In this document: in pieces, positions 8,482 to 20,274 of the stretch
Layout: the number at the start of each line of letters is the position of its first letter
Numbering within the stretch: position 1 is the first letter of the stretch
Virus record (IMG/VR): IMGVR_UViG_3300035698_007864
Location: 1 to 30,287 of that record
Length of the DNA: 30,287 nt
Direction: 5' to 3' (one strand)
Origin: a virus
Notes under the pieces: generated by a model
What the model was told of the DNA's origin: nothing
Database searches by the model: none
What the model saw: only the letters and a program-made list of their open reading frames with translations
Translations under genes and position numbers: made by a program

Positions 8482-8498
8482 TTGACTGGAGTTTGAAA

Positions 8499-8768
8499 AT
8501 GGTTGGAATTGACAAGCAGAAGCCCCACGGTTCAAAACCTTACCTCACACCTGACCTTTATTTCGCAGCAACCCTCTTGTGTGCCGAAGTGCATTTCAAT
8601 GGGATTGTGCGTGACCAGAAGGGTCGGGCCAAGTTCTCATTCACAGATACCTTGGATGCTGTAGCTGACATCCGTCAAGACTACTACAACCGGACCTGTA
8701 AAGTCGATGCACTGACTTACAGTGACCGGGTAAAGTCGTTAAAGAGTCTGTGCCATGCCGACACGTAG
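8499..8768 (+). CDS. Hypothetical small protein preceding the modification cassette (89 aa)
   Basis: An in-frame TTG exists at 8493, but GGAG at 8488-8491 is seven bases from the ATG at 8499, which fits better. The protein is basic, with a helical middle (TPDLYFAATLLCAEVHF) and no recognised motif. Its last 14 bases overlap the twin glycosyltransferase gene, so the two are probably translationally coupled. It may belong functionally to the cassette, but nothing in its sequence shows this. Confidence 0.7.
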   Translation: MVGIDKQKPHGSKPYLTPDLYFAATLLCAEVHFNGIVRDQKGRAKFSFTDTLDAVADIRQDYYNRTCKVDALTYSDRVKSLKSLCHADT

Positions 8769-10878
8769 GAAAGTCCCAGCAGTTGTCAGGGCATCCGTTG
8801 AACCACGGAAGGTTCTGCTAGTCTGTGAACAGAAGGGATGGGTTTTTGAACGAATCAGCCAGCGTATCGCCGGGGAACTCAAGCACGCTGGATTTGAACC
8901 CGAAGTCTGTGATGCTGGTTCCTTGCCTCGGAAAATCACACACGAATTCGTTCTGTTGGTTTGGTGGGGCTCCTGGGCACAAGTCAAGCCTAAGATAATC
9001 CCTAAAAAGACCAAGGTGATACTCTTCCTCTATGACCACTTCACCTGGTTGGACTACAGCCCAGCCCTATTCAAAGAGGCAATGGCAGCTTCAATGGCTG
9101 TCTTTGTGTCGAACAAGATTCTTCAAGTCCAACTGAAACAGCATCACGGTGTTGACGCCACGAACCAACCAGACGGGGTTGATGCAAGTCGGTTCGTATG
9201 GAACCAACGCCGTGAGATTGACAATATCGTCCTGGGGTGGGCTGGTAATTCAACCGTCAGCCGAAAGGTGAAGCGGCTAGACCTCCTCAAGGAAGCTGTT
9301 TCTACATTTCCAGACATCACCCTGGAGGTTGCAGACGCATCCAATCCTAGTACGGCGGTACAGTACAGCCAGATGCCTGCCTGGTACAGCAACATTGACG
9401 TGATATGCAGTATGTCTACCACGGAAGGAACCCCGAATCCAGTTCTTGAAGGGGCGTCGTGTGGTAAGGCCATCTTCTCGACTCCGATTGGGGTTGTCCC
9501 TGAATTGCTGGCGATTAGTAAGGGGGGCATCCTAGTCAAGGATGATTCCGTAGAAGGGATTCGACAGCATCTTGAAATTCTTCGAGCCCACAAGGGACAC
9601 ATCTACAAGTGGGGTCGTCAGAACCGGGCTGAGATTGAGCGGGCGTGGACCTGGAAGGGTAGGTTCAATCAACTTATCGAAACGATGCGGCTGTCGTCAG
9701 GGCTTCCAGCACAGGTTATTGAAAGGAAGATCCAACCGAATGACTTCCCAGAGTCTTTTGGAAGCCGACCAGATATGAAAGTTCTTGAGGTTAAGACACC
9801 AGGTTATTCTAGTCAAGTCGCCCGACACATCAGCCGTATCCTTTCTTCAGATAAGTCAGTGAAGTTCTGTGCTTCCGATTCATCCAGCATCATGTTGGAA
9901 TTTGAAGAAGGTGTACTTGCTGAAGATGGGACGATAGCGTCTGATTTACCTAATTTAGCGGTTGTGTATGACTCCCCAAACTGGGCCTTCCACAGAATCG
10001 CTTTGCAGATACAGAAGCATCTTCAGAACAGCTTTAACATCTGCTTGTTTGAGTACTTAGACCTGAGTCGGGGGCGGCTACAGGGGTACGACTACGTCAT
10101 AAATTTGGCTCTGTGTGGGGTACCGCAAGTTCTTTCGGCTATGGGAGAGGAACAGCGTGGTCTGGTGACCTGTGTGTATGACCATTATACCTGGCGACAA
10201 GCAGCAATGATTCCAGCGTTTGAAGAAGCACTTCAGCGGTCTGATATTGTTCTCTGTGCTAATGAGGGTCTGTTGCGTGAAATCGGGGAAGTTTATCCCC
10301 ATGCAAGTCTGGGTCTTTGTGTTGATGGGGTTGATTCTAATCTATTTTCACCAGCAATGTCCGTCAGAGTTCCAGAAGCAAATGTCAGAGTCGGGTGGGC
10401 AGGCAATTCAAAGCATCGGTACGGTGTTAAGAGATTGTCTCTGATTCAGGCGGCTGCCGAAAAGGTGGTTGGTATTGATCTGGTTTTGGCTGACGGAAAC
10501 AATATCCCACACTCTGAAATGCCCCAATGGTACCGTGACCTTGATGTGCTGACTTGTGCGTCTGTTTACGAAGGGACACCAAATCCAATTCTTGAAGCGG
10601 CTGCTTGTGGCGTTTCATTCATCTCCACTTCAGTTGGGGTGGTTCCTCAGTTAGGTCTTCTCACTGACGGTGACCCTGGAGCTATCATTCAGGGGGAATC
10701 ATCCGCTGAACTTATAGACGGGTTCGTGTCGCAGTTTGAATTCATTGTGAAGAATCGACAGGTCTTAGTCGAACGTGGGAAAGTCGCAAGAAAGACTATC
10801 GTTGAAGAACGCTGGGATTGGGTAAGAAAAGTGAAGCAGTTTTCTACAGCCATCGAAATGATAGCGAAGAGGGTATGA
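8755..10878 (+). CDS. Twin-domain GT-B glycosyltransferase (707 aa)
   Basis: Two GT4-like GT-B glycosyltransferase units are fused head to tail, at about residues 18-325 and 395-707. Matching landmarks appear in each: YDHFTW and YDHYTW; GWAGNS at 161-166 and 547-552; DGVDASRF and DGVDSNLF; and the nucleotide-sugar binding EX7E motif at Glu224/Glu232 and Glu606/Glu614 within EGTPNPVLE and EGTPNPILE. Both EX7E motifs are intact, so both units may be active. The family transfers sugars from nucleotide donors in the cytosol. The gene overlaps its upstream neighbour by 14 bases and is followed after one base by a SAM methyltransferase. The acceptor is unknown: virion protein, DNA base or another glycan are all possible. 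The duplication is old, since the two halves are well diverged. Confidence 0.9.
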   Translation: MPTRRKVPAVVRASVEPRKVLLVCEQKGWVFERISQRIAGELKHAGFEPEVCDAGSLPRKITHEFVLLVWWGSWAQVKPKIIPKKTKVILFLYDHFTWLDYSPALFKEAMAASMAVFVSNKILQVQLKQHHGVDATNQPDGVDASRFVWNQRREIDNIVLGWAGNSTVSRKVKRLDLLKEAVSTFPDITLEVADASNPSTAVQYSQMPAWYSNIDVICSMSTTEGTPNPVLEGASCGKAIFSTPIGVVPELLAISKGGILVKDDSVEGIRQHLEILRAHKGHIYKWGRQNRAEIERAWTWKGRFNQLIETMRLSSGLPAQVIERKIQPNDFPESFGSRPDMKVLEVKTPGYSSQVARHISRILSSDKSVKFCASDSSSIMLEFEEGVLAEDGTIASDLPNLAVVYDSPNWAFHRIALQIQKHLQNSFNICLFEYLDLSRGRLQGYDYVINLALCGVPQVLSAMGEEQRGLVTCVYDHYTWRQAAMIPAFEEALQRSDIVLCANEGLLREIGEVYPHASLGLCVDGVDSNLFSPAMSVRVPEANVRVGWAGNSKHRYGVKRLSLIQAAAEKVVGIDLVLADGNNIPHSEMPQWYRDLDVLTCASVYEGTPNPILEAAACGVSFISTSVGVVPQLGLLTDGDPGAIIQGESSAELIDGFVSQFEFIVKNRQVLVERGKVARKTIVEERWDWVRKVKQFSTAIEMIAKRV

Positions 10879-10879
10879 A

Positions 10880-12034
10880 ATGATGTACTTGTTTGGAAGC
10901 GAATCAGATGTGATTGGGAGACTTCTACCTGAAGCGATTCCGCTTGATGTTAATGCTGTGAGTTCCGGTGATTTCATTGTCGCTGGTTTTCGCCATCCAG
11001 GGGCATTCGATGACCAGGTAGCCTGGGTTACTGAATGCCGGAACCTTTTCGTCCTGGTACAGAAGTCGAAAGCCCTGCTTGTCCCTGTTGATCTTGACCA
11101 TCTGGCTACTGACCCACAGATGGTGGCTAAGAATCTGCAACGGAGAATCGGACTTAGAGAAACTGTCATCGCCCCTACTGAAGCTACGCCGACTATGAAG
11201 AGGACTGGTGATGAATCAAGCATTGAAGCCCTGACCTTCTATGGGAAAATGAAGTTCAATGTGAACTACGCACCTTTTGGTGTTATTGACTGGAGTCAGG
11301 GCCCGTATCCTCTCGAAGAGGACGTGCGGTGTAATCTCTGCGGTGGGGCACCTAGAACTTTGGTCAAAGACGCTCAGTGTACCGGTCAGGACTTTGTAGA
11401 GTGTTCTGAATGTGGGTTTGGTTACTTTTCCCCAAGGGTTGCTTACAGTGAAGAGTTTAAGAAGGCCGTATCCAACGGCGGGCAGTTCACGAAGTGGACT
11501 CTTCACTGTAAATTTTTGGACACCTTTTATGGGGCCCACGCTATCCGTTTGAATGAACTATCCCAGCGACCGACAAAGAGCATTCTTGATGTGGGCTGTG
11601 GGGATGGTTACGCCTTGAGCGTGTTTCGATCCCACTGGCCAGATGCGAAGCTAGTCGGGTGTGATATCAGCAAGTGGGCCACTGATTTCGCTGAAGGAAA
11701 TCGGGGTGTCCAGTGCGTAGTGGGGTCTTTTGACGACCTGACAAAGAAAGATTTGGGGATGCACGACATCGTGACATGCTTCAACTTCATCGAACACACC
11801 TTCACCCCTCTGGAAGATATCAAGATGATGGTATCAAGGGTCCGTAAGGATGGGCTTCTGTTGATTCAGACGTTCCTCACTGAATTGGACCCGGACTACA
11901 CGATGATGTCTCCTCCGTGGCACACTGGTCATTTCACTGAAGAACATCTTGTTCGTCTTGCTGAGAGTTTCGGTGTCAAGATCGTTTCAAGCAAGTCGGC
12001 TGGGATTCTATGGACTGGAGTATTTAGGAAGTAA
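10880..12034 (+). CDS. SAM-dependent methyltransferase with internal zinc ribbon (384 aa)
   Basis: The N-terminal 110 residues are an unassigned alpha/beta domain. A four-Cys zinc ribbon follows: CNLCGG at 151-156 and CSECGFGY from 175. Next comes a class I methyltransferase domain with motif I ILDVGCGDGY at 235-244, VGCDIS about 25 residues on, and FNFIEH as the post-I/IV region. The ribbon-plus-methyltransferase arrangement is known from enzymes methylating sugars or nucleotide-sugar products, so the partner is probably the adjacent glycosyltransferase product (inference). It begins one base after the previous stop, with GAAGAGGG as SD. ATG codons at 10880 and 10883 are equally plausible starts. 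Confidence 0.88.
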   Translation: MMYLFGSESDVIGRLLPEAIPLDVNAVSSGDFIVAGFRHPGAFDDQVAWVTECRNLFVLVQKSKALLVPVDLDHLATDPQMVAKNLQRRIGLRETVIAPTEATPTMKRTGDESSIEALTFYGKMKFNVNYAPFGVIDWSQGPYPLEEDVRCNLCGGAPRTLVKDAQCTGQDFVECSECGFGYFSPRVAYSEEFKKAVSNGGQFTKWTLHCKFLDTFYGAHAIRLNELSQRPTKSILDVGCGDGYALSVFRSHWPDAKLVGCDISKWATDFAEGNRGVQCVVGSFDDLTKKDLGMHDIVTCFNFIEHTFTPLEDIKMMVSRVRKDGLLLIQTFLTELDPDYTMMSPPWHTGHFTEEHLVRLAESFGVKIVSSKSAGILWTGVFRK

Positions 12035-12035
12035 T

Positions 12036-13133
12036 ATGAGCCATTATTCTGACTTGATGGGTAAAACGGTTTCGACATTCTCCTTCACTGTACCTACTTC
12101 AAAGCTGGGTAACATTCTGTGTGGGTACTACAGTCAGGTTCCACTACCGTTCCATACGGCACTGGTGTCTGACACGCTTGCTGGGAAAAAGATTGATAGT
12201 GCAGACGCCAGCCACAAGTACGTGGAATATCTACGCCGAATTGAGCCGATGGAACACGCTAATGGCAAAGATTCTGAATCGTGGTTGGCCAAGCAGGTGG
12301 TGTACCGGCAGAAGCTAATCAACGACATCAAGAAGAATGGGGTGAAAGAGTCCGTTGAATTGTTCGTAGACAACAACAACAGTCGGATTGTCTACTACCA
12401 CGGGTACCACCGGTTTACGACGGCGCAGGCTCTAGGGACTGAAACTATGGAAGTGAAGGTCCACGTCTTGTCCCCAGAGCTTGCTGAGGCGTGTAAGCTG
12501 CTTTTTTCTATCTATCCAGCGAAACCACATTCGATTTACCAACCACTCAGTCATCCGATGTTCAGGCTTCTGGATGTTCATAATGTGGACTTACCTGTGA
12601 AGGTCAGTGCTATCTTGAACACGCAGCCAGCGACAGCCTTTCTTGATGTTGGGTGCAATCTTGGCTATGTCTCCCGGAGACTGCAAGCCGCCGGTTGGAC
12701 TGGCATTGGGGTGGATTTCGACAGCAAGTTGGGGAAGCTACAACCACTCCTGGCTGCCTGTGGGGAAGTCCCTGTTGATTATCGTGTGGGGTACATTGAC
12801 AAGTTCCTGGAAGAAAATCCTGACTATCAGTGCGTCGCTATCTTCCTTTCGTTCCTTCATCATTACTTCGCACTCCCAGAACGCTACCAGATGTTGGTAG
12901 ACACCGTATTTCCGTGGATGCGGCGAAACTGCAAAGTCGCTTATGTCGAACACGAATACGGTAGTGACTACAGTGGGCTCGTAGGTAGGGGGGTGGTCGA
13001 GAAGCACATTTCCTTTAGCGATAGGTCGGACGTGGTCTCCTATTGGGCTACGGTGGGTTACGATGCTAAGTTCCTGTTCAAGGCAAGCACGTACAATCGA
13101 GAGCTATTTCGTTTGGCTAGAAGGGGAGAATGA
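12036..13133 (+). CDS. ParB-like domain fused to SAM methyltransferase (365 aa)
   Basis: The start is set at the ATG at 12036 (AGGAAG four bases upstream), not the longer frame from 11949, which overlaps the previous gene without an SD. Residues 85-145 follow the ParB/sulfiredoxin-type fold pattern: a helix with LINDIKKNGV, then IVYYHGYHRFTTAQALG (HGYHR at 122-126), then a closing strand. A class I SAM methyltransferase domain starts near residue 200 with FLDVGCNLGY (Asp204 to Tyr211) and GIGVDFD. ParB-fold domains can bind DNA or CTP, and one (SbnI) phosphorylates free serine, so the N-terminal part could be a kinase or binding module. Its stop overlaps the next start as ATGA. Confidence 0.82.
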   Translation: MSHYSDLMGKTVSTFSFTVPTSKLGNILCGYYSQVPLPFHTALVSDTLAGKKIDSADASHKYVEYLRRIEPMEHANGKDSESWLAKQVVYRQKLINDIKKNGVKESVELFVDNNNSRIVYYHGYHRFTTAQALGTETMEVKVHVLSPELAEACKLLFSIYPAKPHSIYQPLSHPMFRLLDVHNVDLPVKVSAILNTQPATAFLDVGCNLGYVSRRLQAAGWTGIGVDFDSKLGKLQPLLAACGEVPVDYRVGYIDKFLEENPDYQCVAIFLSFLHHYFALPERYQMLVDTVFPWMRRNCKVAYVEHEYGSDYSGLVGRGVVEKHISFSDRSDVVSYWATVGYDAKFLFKASTYNRELFRLARRGE

Positions 13134-14953
13134 TGGAAATCAATCTGAAGTCTGAACTCACAGTTTTCGTGATTACGTCCGACGAACCCGAGTTCGAGAA
13201 GTGTCTTACAGCCCTTGAAGACCAGGATTGTGAGTTTACCCTGTCTGTGGTCAAGGGTGTGTCTCCGATGAACGCCGCTTTTCAGAAGATGCTGGATTTG
13301 TGTGAGACTCCTTTCTACATCCAGGTCGATGCCGATATGATTCTGTATCCGTCGGCAGTTCGACAGATGTACGAGGACATGCTGAACCAGGAAGAAAAGG
13401 TAGCACTAATTTGCTATCCGCTCCATGACCTTCATCTGGGTCATCTTCTGATGGGAGTGAAGATTTACCGCCATTCCATTATGGTGAAGCACCCCTACGT
13501 CACTTCGTATTCTTGTGAAGTTGATCAACTAAAGCGGGTGACTGACGCTGGATACAAATGGGTCACCAGGTGGCCCAGGACTTCCCCAGAGGCGTCATTC
13601 AATACTGGGTTCAGTATGACGGACAGCCCCCTAGTAAAGGGGCAGCATGGAACAGTGTGGACAAACGCACGGATATATGTGCGCTACAAGCGTCTGATGC
13701 AGAAGTGGCGGAAGTTTGGTTACGAATGGCTTGAAAGTCTTCCTCAGCGGTTTCTTACTCGTTTGACGAATGAACCGACGGACATAAATCTCTGGGCTTT
13801 TATGGGGGCCGTAGCGGGTCTTGTTTCATCGGTAGATGAAGACAAGGAAAGGGATTTCAACGAGATAGACCCTGCGATTGAACAGCTTGATTCAGTTCTC
13901 AAGGCCCCACTTCATTCTATGGGGATGATTCCGACGATAGGATGCAAGGTAGAATCTCCGATTCCGGCGAAGATTCATAAGCCAGTGGTTAGTCCTGACA
14001 TCTACACTCACGACCTGACTTTGGATACCGCCCCACCTGCCCCGATTTTTGATGGACCACGGGAACTAAATGTCTACATGACGACAAGATGTAATCTTCG
14101 CTGTAGGTTCTGTCGTCGCCAATACCTTGAAAACGCTTCCCATCCGTATGAAGTTCATGCCGGGTTTGTGGATGAAATAATGGAACGCTTCCCGACTATC
14201 AAGTCGGCGTGTGTCGCTGGGTTTGGTGAACCATTACTAGCCCAGACGCTGAATGAATCCCTGATGGCACTGTCGAGGCACAAGGTGACCACTGGGTTGA
14301 TTACAAATGGGACGTTGCTCACGAAGAACTATGCCAAGATCCAAGACACCGACCTTGCCTATGTTTCTGTGAGCTTGAATGCTGCCACGGCTACAGAGTA
14401 TTTCAATACGACTGGGCTAGGGCTTTTTGATGCTGCCCTCGATGGTGTTCGTTTGGCGGTGCGTATGGGCTACCGTGTCGGGGTGTCTTTCGTGTGTACC
14501 AAAGAAAACTACCACCTGGTCGAATCTTACATTGCCATTGCAAGGGAACTAGGCGTTGCATTTGTGTCTCTCCACAATCTGCTTCCTCACTTTTCTGATT
14601 GCTATTCGTCAGAGGAATTTTGGAATCTGGTTCTAACAGACCAGGACCGACAGGAACTAGATGTGTTGGAAAAGCTGAAGGAAAAGCACAGTGACATTGT
14701 GACATCGTGGCCGGTACCTATCAGTAGAGTGTCTTGTCCACGAAAGTGCAACAGTCCGTATGTCAGTATCGGGATTGACGGTCAGACATTTCATTCCGGT
14801 TGCCGAAGGGTGACTGGGCCTAGTATCCTAAATGGGTCTGTTCGGGAAGACAATGTGTGGAATTCTGACCACTACAAGACTCTTCGGGACGGACTTTCCG
14901 GCAAAGCTCCGATGCGGGATATCTGTGCAATGTGTTTTGGTAACTGGGCTTGA
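13130..14953 (+). CDS. GT2-like / radical SAM fusion protein (607 aa)
   Basis: The N-terminal about 110 residues resemble a short GT2-type glycosyltransferase: beta-strand FVITSDEPE, then VDADMILYP with the metal-binding-like DAD at 67-69. After a linker, a radical SAM domain starts near residue 310 with the iron-sulfur motif CNLRCRFC (Cys321, Cys325, Cys328) and GFGEP at 364-368, the SAM amino-group motif. The C-terminus holds five more cysteines (536, 540, 558, 599, 602), suggesting a SPASM/Twitch-like auxiliary cluster. Radical SAM-SPASM enzymes modify peptides, sugars or alcohols by radical chemistry. The ATGA overlap with the preceding methyltransferase indicates an operon. The substrate is unknown. 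The GT2 part is shorter than most stand-alone enzymes and may be only donor-binding. Confidence 0.87.
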   Translation: MMEINLKSELTVFVITSDEPEFEKCLTALEDQDCEFTLSVVKGVSPMNAAFQKMLDLCETPFYIQVDADMILYPSAVRQMYEDMLNQEEKVALICYPLHDLHLGHLLMGVKIYRHSIMVKHPYVTSYSCEVDQLKRVTDAGYKWVTRWPRTSPEASFNTGFSMTDSPLVKGQHGTVWTNARIYVRYKRLMQKWRKFGYEWLESLPQRFLTRLTNEPTDINLWAFMGAVAGLVSSVDEDKERDFNEIDPAIEQLDSVLKAPLHSMGMIPTIGCKVESPIPAKIHKPVVSPDIYTHDLTLDTAPPAPIFDGPRELNVYMTTRCNLRCRFCRRQYLENASHPYEVHAGFVDEIMERFPTIKSACVAGFGEPLLAQTLNESLMALSRHKVTTGLITNGTLLTKNYAKIQDTDLAYVSVSLNAATATEYFNTTGLGLFDAALDGVRLAVRMGYRVGVSFVCTKENYHLVESYIAIARELGVAFVSLHNLLPHFSDCYSSEEFWNLVLTDQDRQELDVLEKLKEKHSDIVTSWPVPISRVSCPRKCNSPYVSIGIDGQTFHSGCRRVTGPSILNGSVREDNVWNSDHYKTLRDGLSGKAPMRDICAMCFGNWA

Positions 14954-15002: not shown

Positions 15003-16373
15003 ATGTCGGTAGTCTTTACACCAGGGCAAGAACTTGGGTCGTCTGATTTGGACCTGAATTTGACCAATGAAGCAGGTTACCCAACTAACGCCGCAAGTAT
15101 CAGCTACGCTATCTACTACGTCGTAGAGACCGTTGAATACCTGGTAGGCGACGCTACTAGAGTACCGGTGAATCCAGCCGTTGGACGGTATTACGCCGCT
15201 TTCCTTGTCCCCGTTGGGGCAGAGCTAGGCGACTATGTCATTCGTTGGACGATTCGTCAGTTCGTGAACTCACCAGAAATCCAGGTCATTCAAGAATTTG
15301 GGGTCATTTCCTCTTCGCTTGTTCCTGTCCAAACAGTAGACCCCAATGTTGCCACACTTCTTCGGAGTATGAGAATCCGTACCAGGGACAACAACCCCGA
15401 CCGGAACTACCACTTCAGACCCCCAACTGGGGAAGGGCCAATCAATTCTCAGAACCGAGTCTTCGGGTACATCTGGGAAGATGAAGAACTAGTTGAATAC
15501 CTGGAACGCTCCCTTGACCTTATCAACATGTATCCCCCGGAGACTGGCATTCCGAGCATCAGTTCTTTGGTAAGTCAGAAACCGGCGTGGCGTACAATGT
15601 TGATTGAGGGAGCGTTGATGGGGGCACTAGGAGCCCTCACTTTGAACTGGATCGAAGAGGAATTTTCGATTCGTGGAGACCAGGAAGTGACCGTATTCCT
15701 TCCTGATGGCGAAGAAGTTTCACTACCTATAAAGGAACTGTACAGGATATGTCACAGCGAATCCTACACACGAATCAGCGAGGCTTTTCGTGCTGGGAAA
15801 CTCCGGGTTCGGTCAGTGATGCCTGATGGAATTGTCCAGAAATGTGTTGTGGCTGACGTAGCCCGACATCGGGTGAAGGATAAGAGGATGATGGCTGTGG
15901 TCTGTGATGACCGGGCTGTTGTCTGTACCGAAGACCATAGCCTGTTCTCACCTAAGCCGTTTGTACCGATCAAGACTGCCGCAGTAGTTGAAGGTGGGGA
16001 CATCAGTGGTGTAGTGGGCAATAGTCATATTCCGTTGAAGGTCACGAACATTGCTGAAGTGGAACCAGAAGAATTCGCCTATGACCTCTGTGTACCCGGA
16101 CCTGAGAACTTTGTCCTCACTTCTGGAATTCTAGCCCATAATAGTTACAGCATCGGAGGCATCAGTCTTGACCTGAACAAGTCGTCGAACTACTCGAGTA
16201 TGTTGGATAATGCCCAGGGTCAGTTTGAAAAGTTTGTCGAAGCAGCGATGCGTACTGTCAAGATTACAAAAGGACTGAGGCAGTCAAGATATGGTATAGG
16301 GATTCAGTCGGCTTTTGGGCCGACGACTGGCCGGGGTATAATGTCCCCTGGGAAGTTTGTGTCCCTATTTTAG
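15003..16373 (+). CDS. Virion structural protein interrupted by a mini-intein (456-aa precursor)
   Basis: The precursor has three parts. Residues 1-221 are the N-extein: an Ig-like beta domain to about 105, then an alpha/beta part with VDPNVATLL and a helix ending ALTLNWIEEEF. Residues 222-380 are an intein. Residues 381-456 are the C-extein, starting SYSIGGISL. Splicing would join EEEF to SYSIGG and give a 297-residue protein that reads as continuous. Such proteins occur in large myoviruses as structural (baseplate or neck type) components, to my recollection. The ATG at 15003 has AAGGGGGTGA just upstream. Without splicing the structural domain would be split. Confidence 0.85.
   Translation: MSVVFTPGQELGSSDLDLNLTNEAGYPTNAASISYAIYYVVETVEYLVGDATRVPVNPAVGRYYAAFLVPVGAELGDYVIRWTIRQFVNSPEIQVIQEFGVISSSLVPVQTVDPNVATLLRSMRIRTRDNNPDRNYHFRPPTGEGPINSQNRVFGYIWEDEELVEYLERSLDLINMYPPETGIPSISSLVSQKPAWRTMLIEGALMGALGALTLNWIEEEFSIRGDQEVTVFLPDGEEVSLPIKELYRICHSESYTRISEAFRAGKLRVRSVMPDGIVQKCVVADVARHRVKDKRMMAVVCDDRAVVCTEDHSLFSPKPFVPIKTAAVVEGGDISGVVGNSHIPLKVTNIAEVEPEEFAYDLCVPGPENFVLTSGILAHNSYSIGGISLDLNKSSNYSSMLDNAQGQFEKFVEAAMRTVKITKGLRQSRYGIGIQSAFGPTTGRGIMSPGKFVSLF
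15666..16142 (+). mobile_element. Mini-intein (159 residues, Ser1, terminal HN, no endonuclease)
   Basis: The intein occupies residues 222-380 of the host protein. It begins with Ser222 as the N-terminal nucleophile. It has a block B TxxH motif (TEDH at 309-312), a block F-like YDLCVPGPENF, and ends with the block G sequence GILAHN (His379, Asn380) followed by Ser381 as the +1 residue. These are the residues needed for protein splicing. At 159 residues there is no room for a homing endonuclease, so it is probably no longer mobile by itself. Junctions are deduced from motif rules and from extein continuity. Confidence 0.85.
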
Positions 16374-18743: not shown

Positions 18744-19282
18744 TTGTCATAGGAAGAATCAGCCCGACCCACTACCTTGGGGACATCCGGGTAATCGTCC
18801 CTTTCGGTCAGCACGTTGAAATCCCTGACGACTTGGCGTCGAAGTCATTGCACCTAGCTCAAGCCCTAAGCCGGAAGTTTGTCGAAGCTATCCGATTACC
18901 CCCAGCGGTGAAACCTGTTCCCACCCACATTCCGGCCAGGTCTTCAACGAATGAGATAAAGCAGCTTCGGAAGACGATAGAGGCACAGTCGGTTACGGGT
19001 CGGGTCGATAAGTTGGAAGAAAAGGTGGTAGGTGTAGACGAAAAGATGGACCAGGTTCTCGGCTTAGTTCAGCAACTCCTTGAACGGGGAATCCCTACAA
19101 GCCCAGTATCACACACTCGCCCAACTTCTGTAGAGGGGCTTCCACCGGTGCCACACGTTTATTTCGATGTGGACACATCTAGTGTAGAATCTGAAAGACT
19201 AGTCACCCAGGATAGTAGTGACGAAGGGTCTGGTCTTGACGATGCGAAGGAACTGTTGAAAAAGTTGAGGGGGAAGGAATGA
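18740..19282 (+). CDS. Hypothetical protein with central coiled coil (180 aa)
   Basis: The N-terminal about 60 residues are beta-type (MIVIGRISPTHYLGDIRVIV). Residues 75-118 look like a coiled coil (IKQLRKTIEAQ, then VDKLEEKVVGVDEKMDQVLGL). Residues 125-165 are Ser/Pro-rich and acidic. The C-terminal DDAKELLKKLRG is a short helix. It overlaps both neighbours with ATGA junctions, so it is co-translated with the gp10-like protein and the actin-like ATPase and may be an adaptor between them (inference). Confidence 0.75.
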   Translation: MIVIGRISPTHYLGDIRVIVPFGQHVEIPDDLASKSLHLAQALSRKFVEAIRLPPAVKPVPTHIPARSSTNEIKQLRKTIEAQSVTGRVDKLEEKVVGVDEKMDQVLGLVQQLLERGIPTSPVSHTRPTSVEGLPPVPHVYFDVDTSSVESERLVTQDSSDEGSGLDDAKELLKKLRGKE

Positions 19283-20274
19283 AAGCTACTCCAGGGGTTG
19301 GGCTCGACATCGGAACCATGAATATCGTATCAGCACGGTCAGTGACTGGGGAAGACGGTAAGAGGTCAGTGAGCACGAAGCGTGTCCGTGACGTATTCAT
19401 CGACTTAGAGCCCGACGCCGAAAAAATGCTGAAGATGTCGAACATGTCGTATGTGACTACCGGCGACCAAATCATTGTGATTGGGGATGAAGCCATCGAA
19501 TTGGCGAACCTGTTCAAGCGGGAAGCTCGCAGGCCTCTCCACAAGGGCGTCATTTCTTCTACGGAGCACGATGCCTTTGGAATCCTGGCAACCATCATCA
19601 AGCAAGTCCTGGGAGCCCCAGTCGTGAAGAATGAGGCGTGCGTCTATTCTGTACCCGCTGCTCCCATTGATAGTGATATGGATGTTGTCTTCCACCAGGA
19701 GACATTTCGTCAAATCATCCGTGACCTTGGGTACACCCCGACCCCTATCAATGAAGCCGCTGCGATTGTCTTTGCTGAATGCGTACCGGAATTCTTCACA
19801 GGACTGGCCTTTTCCTTTGGGGCAGGGATGGTAAACGCCGCCCTTGTCTACAAGACCATCACCGGGATTTCCTTCTCAGTCTCACGGGCTGGCGACTGGA
19901 TTGATTCTAGTGCTGCTAGGGCCGTCGGGACTACAGCCTCGAAGATGTGTACCCTGAAGGAGCGGGGGCTAGACCTGACGAACCCTGAAACCAGGGAACA
20001 GAAGGCTCTGACCATCTACTACGAGAACCTGATTCAAACGACACTGGATACGATGTCTTCCCGGTTCAAGCAGTCTGAAGTTGAAGTGGCAGGGAAGATT
20101 CCCATCATCCTGTCTGGGGGGACCAGCAAGGCGGTTGGGTTCCTAGACTTCTTCAAGAAGGTACTGGAATCCCAGAAGGGCTTTCCTTTTGAAGTCAGTG
20201 AGGTCCGTATGGCTACCGACCCACTGACAGCGGTAGCTAAAGGAGCCCTGGTAAATGCGGCACAGGAGCACTAG
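19279..20274 (+). CDS. Actin/Hsp70-fold (ASKHA) ATPase-like protein (331 aa)
   Basis: Three nucleotide-site motifs of the actin-Hsp70 superfamily appear in order: phosphate 1 GLDIGTMN near residues 8-15; phosphate 2-like SFGAGM at 179-184; and the adenosine motif IILSGGTSK at 276-284, followed by DPLTAVAKGALV near the end. Phosphate 2 lacks the usual Asp (DxG), so hydrolysis may be altered. I recall an Hsp70-like subfamily with this SFGAGM variant. Length fits a ParM/MreB-sized protein without an Hsp70 substrate domain. It could be a filament former or an assembly chaperone. It starts at an ATGA overlap, and the next gene begins directly at its stop, placing it within the tail morphogenesis operon. 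Confidence 0.85.
   Translation: MKATPGVGLDIGTMNIVSARSVTGEDGKRSVSTKRVRDVFIDLEPDAEKMLKMSNMSYVTTGDQIIVIGDEAIELANLFKREARRPLHKGVISSTEHDAFGILATIIKQVLGAPVVKNEACVYSVPAAPIDSDMDVVFHQETFRQIIRDLGYTPTPINEAAAIVFAECVPEFFTGLAFSFGAGMVNAALVYKTITGISFSVSRAGDWIDSSAARAVGTTASKMCTLKERGLDLTNPETREQKALTIYYENLIQTTLDTMSSRFKQSEVEVAGKIPIILSGGTSKAVGFLDFFKKVLESQKGFPFEVSEVRMATDPLTAVAKGALVNAAQEH

Follow-up and report, generated by a model that had tools for sequence, protein, structure and literature searches.

The locus described here raises the question of what a phage does with four consecutive genes for glycosyltransferases, methyltransferases and a radical SAM enzyme placed among the genes of its virion. The window, meaning the whole stretch of DNA that was analyzed, is a 30,287-base virus record from IMG/VR, in which four ORFs lie head to tail on the + strand at 8755-14953:

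P1, 8755-10878, + strand: 707 aa, tandem GT4 protein
P2, 10880-12034, + strand: 384 aa, zinc ribbon plus methyltransferase (MT)
P3, 12036-13133, + strand: 365 aa, ParB-like/MT protein
P4, 13130-14953, + strand: 607 aa, GT2-like/radical SAM-SPASM protein

The ORF coordinates bear out the arrangement that a sequence-only reading had claimed for this cassette, with its 1-base gaps (10879 between P1 and P2; 12035 between P2 and P3) and ATGA overlap (13130-13133, P3 and P4) among virion genes, and the motifs it had pointed out (EX7E twice, DVGCGDG, DVGCNLG and CNLRCRFC) were all located where it placed them. Shine-Dalgarno-like sequences precede the starts of P2, P3 and P4, and promoter-like and terminator-like matches between 8000 and 15100 do not rise above those in shuffled sequence. 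No membrane helix is predicted in any of the four proteins. The GC content of the cassette (49-50%) is not clearly different from that of the neighboring genes; a recent foreign origin was considered, and base composition gives no sign of it.

When the domain calls of the sequence-only reading were checked with Pfam, the two GT4 domains, the methyltransferase of P2 and the radical SAM domain stood, and the GT2-like and ParB-like calls proved weak enough to need the help of relatives. P1 consists of two GT-B units (aa 1-350 and aa 351-707), and its place in GT4 follows from two matches over cut-off to PF13692 (E=6e-23) together with the EX7E motif at aa 224 and aa 606. The two halves are 30% identical to each other (E=6e-36) and therefore represent a true duplication. 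P2 has a zinc ribbon (CNLCGG...CSECG, with its Cys pairs) at approximately aa 151-180, followed by a class I methyltransferase (aa 224-370) that is matched by Methyltransf_23 (E=1e-16).

The relatives came from two further phages, unrelated to the window, in which the set of domains recurs. L082 (a 95,880-bp contig), which has its own 989-aa sheath, was found with an alignment of the two P1 halves; its genes run in the order sheath, 116-aa ORF, GT4, GT4, GT2 and ParB-like-plus-MT, and then tape measure and further tail genes, with no radical SAM gene in the 20.9 kb examined. In L084 (a 34,188-bp contig), found with an alignment of the GT2 pair, genes for a cement protein and the major capsid protein (E=1.5e-23) and then a 138-aa ORF precede the cassette, in which a 971-aa protein unites GT4, GT4 and GT2 and is followed by a radical SAM/SPASM protein that stands alone, an MT and a ParB-like-plus-MT protein. 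The two units fused in P4 are separate in L084, where a single protein combines the units of P1 with that of the GT2 half of P4. Compared pairwise, the GT4, GT2 and radical SAM domains of the three phages score 101-201 bits; the P1 homologs (two genes in L082, fused to GT2 in L084) score 103-137 bits at best and the P3 homolog of L084 scores 50 bits, and likeness is weak between P3 and the ParB-MT protein of L082 (27 bits) and between P2 and the L084 MT in a similar slot (26.6 bits).

Where parts are joined in one genome and separate in another, a shared pathway is the classic conclusion, and here the same domains in differing fusions in unrelated phages argue for a single one. The presence of the domain set in two phages unrelated to the window is more than chance. 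Because L082 was reached through the GT4 pair and L084 through the GT2 unit, the search itself did not impose the co-occurrence. The proposal of the sequence-only reading that the four genes work together, for which it had suggested a genome-neighborhood search, is thus well supported. Just upstream of their cassettes, the small ORFs of L082 (8634-8984) and L084 (7461-7877) have in common a weak C-terminal domain (TGTG..I.H.L...P; pairwise E=0.007), and these ORFs may possibly encode acceptors.

The count of carriers is a lower bound, since the scans need short exact peptide patterns. P1, P3 and P4 have no tblastn match in 50,697 phage records, in which the set as a whole has no close matches and such GT4 and radical SAM matches as occur are weak and partial. 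IMG/VR pattern scans with each single protein gave nothing, as did a bacterial genome scan with P4; a bacterial genome scan with the GT4-half alignment gave one 42-residue match, which was not used, and the GT2 profile had 0 matches in 398 genomes from the phylum of a Sphingomonas, a set that holds no positive control. Neither the phage records nor the literature searched, which takes in few subscription journals, yielded the gene set of the cassette.

P4 comprises a GT2-like part (aa 5-258, with the motif QVDAD) and a radical SAM/SPASM part (aa 308-604, with CNLRCRFC). The GT2-like half has no credible Pfam match of its own; its L082 homolog, and this copy only, matches Glycos_transf_2 below cut-off (E=8e-4), and the GT2-like units of the three phages all retain a D-x-D motif. 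This half is 38% identical to the GT2 part of the L084 protein (184 bits) and 36% identical to the GT2 protein of L082 (164 bits). The C-terminal half matches Radical_SAM (PF04055) over cut-off (E=3e-13, 50.7 bits) and is 36% identical to the stand-alone radical SAM protein of L084 (201 bits), which itself reaches the SPASM cut-off (PF13186) and has Cys positions mostly in common with P4. P4 is accordingly placed in the radical SAM/SPASM family by its CX3CX2C motif, its Radical_SAM match over cut-off and, through the L084 homolog, its Cys-rich SPASM tail.

P3 has a ParB/Srx-like part with the motif HGYHR (aa 122-126) and a methyltransferase at approximately aa 194-291, which Methyltransf_25 matches below cut-off (E=1.6e-4). 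For a P3-type profile made from the three phages, the nearest solved structure over the methyltransferase is WbdD (E=3e-5), and the segment around G-x-[HR]-R gives weak matches to SbnI (E=0.3), a ParB/Srx-like serine kinase, and to ParB (E=0.9). Membership of ParB_N was tried and rejected, as the ParB_N profile gives no match; with ParB_N unmatched and the SbnI and ParB scores weak, "ParB-like" stays a call at the level of the motif. A bacterial homolog of P3 spans both the ParB-like and the MT parts (E=1e-17), in a locus that, from its genes (DegT aminotransferase, asparagine synthase, Stealth, GT4 and, by eye, a sulfotransferase-like protein), appears to be of the surface-polysaccharide type. 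P3 is taken as a glycan enzyme, and its ParB-like part as a putative kinase. Single-sequence structure predictions were too poor to use for both P3 (pLDDT 38) and P4 (pLDDT 34).

The window encodes a very long tail sheath (1532 aa; PHROG tail sheath, E=1e-31), a search with which gave 55 IMG/VR relatives on contigs of up to 536 kb. One of these is a 485-kb contig, apparently GenBank record LR745208, and a more distant relative exists as an isolate, Tunturiibacter phage Tunturi_5. Two genes bound the cassette:

8493-8768, + strand: upstream flank gene, 91 aa, conserved; left boundary of the insertion
15003-16373, + strand: downstream flank gene, head-tail connector, with a homolog annotated as such in Tunturi_5; right boundary of the insertion

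The connector gene is present in 21 of 40 related records; P1 is in none of the 40, and P4 has only one weak radical SAM match there. Two relatives, L062 (G015) and L070 (G034), lack the cassette and have the homolog of 8493-8768 directly adjoining the connector gene, which indicates that the cassette is an accessory insertion between two conserved genes. Related phages without the set could be held against the proposal of the sequence-only reading; such phages are found among the sheath relatives only, where they point to an accessory cassette and not to unrelated genes.

Elsewhere in this region, the connector gene contains a mini-intein (aa 222-380, window 15666-16142; Ser start and HN/S end; Pfam and NCBIfam), which is absent from most relatives, with G010, G023 and G032 matching intein sequence elsewhere in the gene. 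Farther along, among virion genes, the gene at 19279-20274 has an actin/Hsp70-like start (GLDIGTMNIVSA; by eye). On the - strand at 3-1814, a Dcm-like m5C DNA methyltransferase, whose long tail is of low complexity, runs off the window end (by eye).

Relatives carry other glycan genes at the same site. G007, G036/G014 and G037 have glycan islands upstream of the connector. These encode glycosyltransferases in the form of GT2-GT4 and MT-GT4 fusions, along with UDP-glucose dehydrogenases and epimerases; their other products are FkbM methyltransferases, a C-methyltransferase that has a zinc-binding domain, B12-binding radical SAM proteins, a GFO/IDH oxidoreductase and a cupin. Neither a flippase nor a polymerase was recognized in these islands among the Pfam-scanned genes and by a simple hydropathy scan. 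Long collagen-like (G-X-Y)n fiber genes, in which Thr occupies about half of the Y positions, lie beside the islands or a few kb upstream (L075, L076, L077 and L078); the window has no collagen-like gene and no nucleotide-sugar genes. Within 35 kb of the connector, 11 of 12 GT4 matches and 9 of 10 GT2 matches lie upstream of it, an enrichment that is inflated by ancestry. Because the island carriers are one clade with homologous islands in common, the site is counted as having been occupied independently twice, by the islands of the clade and by the cassette of the window, and not many times; none of the island genes matches the cassette at E 1e-4. The island of G007 has an intein with a LAGLIDADG domain inside a nucleotide-sugar epimerase gene (L059:5865-9302). 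A second island of glycan type lies far from the connector in G024 (approximately 215-224 kb; L079), with GMD-like and GDP-fucose-synthase-like starts (by eye), a radical SAM protein and a 1328-aa protein with GT2.

The cassette probably serves to glycosylate and tailor a virion protein of the phage itself, by a soluble pathway. A virion protein is the most likely acceptor because in three unrelated phages the set adjoins capsid, sheath or neck genes and because it includes no membrane protein; the lack of a membrane helix in P1-P4, and of a flippase or polymerase in the islands of relatives, suits a soluble acceptor. The nearness of the P3 methyltransferase to WbdD also speaks for this reading, as do the collagen-like fiber genes near the islands of relatives, whose repeats are of a type O-glycosylated in BclA3. 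Against it stand the lack of collagen-like and nucleotide-sugar genes in the window, the absence of radical SAM from the 20.9 kb of L082, the weak likeness of P3 to the L082 protein and of P2 to the L084 MT, and the dissimilarity of the cassette proteins to the mycobacteriophage enzymes. The late-gene neighborhood alone is no proof of a virion target. Acting late in infection, the pathway would build a short tailored glycan on the virion protein: the three glycosyltransferase units (GT4, GT4 and GT2) would add sugars from host nucleotide-sugars, P2 would methylate a sugar, the radical SAM/SPASM half of P4 would make a radical edit (e.g. epimerization, dehydration or cross-linking) on a sugar or on the acceptor peptide, and P3 would cap the chain with a methyl group, possibly once its ParB/Srx-like part has phosphorylated it. 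We infer the virion as acceptor, the order of the steps and the substrate of each enzyme.

The sequence-only reading had named the virion or the DNA as the target. The glycan genes that relatives carry at this site, the polysaccharide-type locus of the bacterial ParB-MT protein, the precedent in mycobacteriophages and the position among virion genes favor a virion glycan over DNA. Hypermodification of DNA, in which the enzymes would build a sugar-bearing base, is very unlikely: phage glycosyltransferases that modify DNA exist (cited in PMC12619734) and the window has the Dcm-like methyltransferase, but no hydroxymethylase, TET-like oxygenase or other base-priming enzyme was recognized in the window or beside the L082 and L084 cassettes, all of them fragments, and both the locus of the ParB-MT homolog and the same-site islands are of the glycan type. 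The absence of DNA modification genes is weak evidence, since the window is a 30-kb fragment. A pathway of the RiPP type, in which the radical SAM/SPASM enzyme, the methyltransferases and the glycosyltransferases would act on the product of a small ORF to give a peptide or small molecule, also seems highly improbable. SPASM radical SAM enzymes act mostly on peptides, and each of the three phages has a small ORF immediately before its cassette (8493-8768 in the window); yet no leader peptidase or exporter was recognized, three glycosyltransferase units would be a large number for a peptide, and the small ORFs of L082 and L084, with their common domain, lie amid virion genes and may themselves encode virion acceptors.

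Another target might be the surface polysaccharide of the host, the O-antigen or capsule of the infected cell being altered and superinfection blocked, as has been proposed for islands of cyanophages and pelagiphages. Glycosyltransferase islands near a neck gene of pelagimyophages are so interpreted in PMC7029224, sugar clusters of jumbo phages are interpreted likewise (PMC7824862), and the likeness of P3 to WbdD and the surface-polysaccharide-type locus of the bacterial ParB-MT protein are in keeping with it. This is nevertheless unlikely for the present cassette, in which, as in the islands of relatives, no membrane protein, flippase, polymerase or ligase was recognized, and which is set directly beside capsid, sheath or connector genes in the three unrelated phages. 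Judged by the helices of P1-P4 and the Pfam-scanned island genes, a complete O-antigen or capsule locus is not present, there being no flippase, polymerase or initiating lipid-linked transferase.

Glycosylation of a virion protein, the preferred reading, could extend to a more general system, although this is rather doubtful: a mobile, modular virion-glycan cassette common to unrelated phages, whose radical SAM/SPASM enzyme would edit the glycan or the acceptor peptide and whose ParB/Srx-fold kinase, fused to a WbdD-like MT, would cap the chain with methyl phosphate. If so, it would to our knowledge be the first radical-SAM-edited virion glycan, with a chain terminator that has a new kinase fold. 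Direct evidence of virion glycosylation exists for few phages, and the recurring set beside capsid, sheath or neck genes offers a searchable signature of it in uncultured large phages. The cassette also points to enzymes with unusual chemistry, namely the radical edit and possibly a new fold of chain-capping kinase.

Among known systems, WbdD is the O-antigen chain terminator, a kinase and methyltransferase. P3 is like it in being a two-domain enzyme with a methyltransferase, and unlike it in that the partner part is N-terminal and ParB/Srx-like, not a kinase of the WbdD type. In the exosporium of C. difficile, the GPT repeats of BclA3 are O-glycosylated on Thr, and the glycosyltransferase gene (SgtA) is next door (PMC7157674). 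The relatives of the window resemble that system in having collagen-like fiber genes beside glycan islands, whereas the window is without such a gene and BclA3 is not a phage system. The host recognition cluster of pelagimyophages and cyanomyophages is likewise a variable glycosyltransferase island that adjoins a neck gene within the structural region, but it is T4-like, rich in GT8, tens of kb long with tail fibers, and interpreted by its authors as changing host LPS; the accessible text makes no mention of a GT4-GT4-GT2/radical SAM/ParB-MT set (PMC7029224).

Cluster O mycobacteriophages (Corndog, Idergollasper) have, like the window, head-to-tail glycosyltransferase and methyltransferase genes among head and tail genes, the order in Idergollasper being portal, OMT, hypothetical, GT, GT, protease and capsid, with small overlaps. 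Their glycosyltransferases are GT2-like and GT25-like, in contrast to GT4, GT4 and GT2 here, and their gene set includes neither radical SAM nor ParB-MT. In blastp comparisons, Idergollasper gp33-36 match the cassette proteins with a best E of 0.01, which does not indicate homology. Such enzymes (primary paper Freeman et al. 2023) are reported in PMC11600133, which counts three tandem glycosyltransferases, to modify the capsid and tail tube, and PMC12363180 lists Che8, Corndog and Myrna as phages with glycosylated proteins. Cluster O is the closest tested precedent; since the layout matches and the sequences do not, the cassette would work like that system, of which it is not a member by descent.
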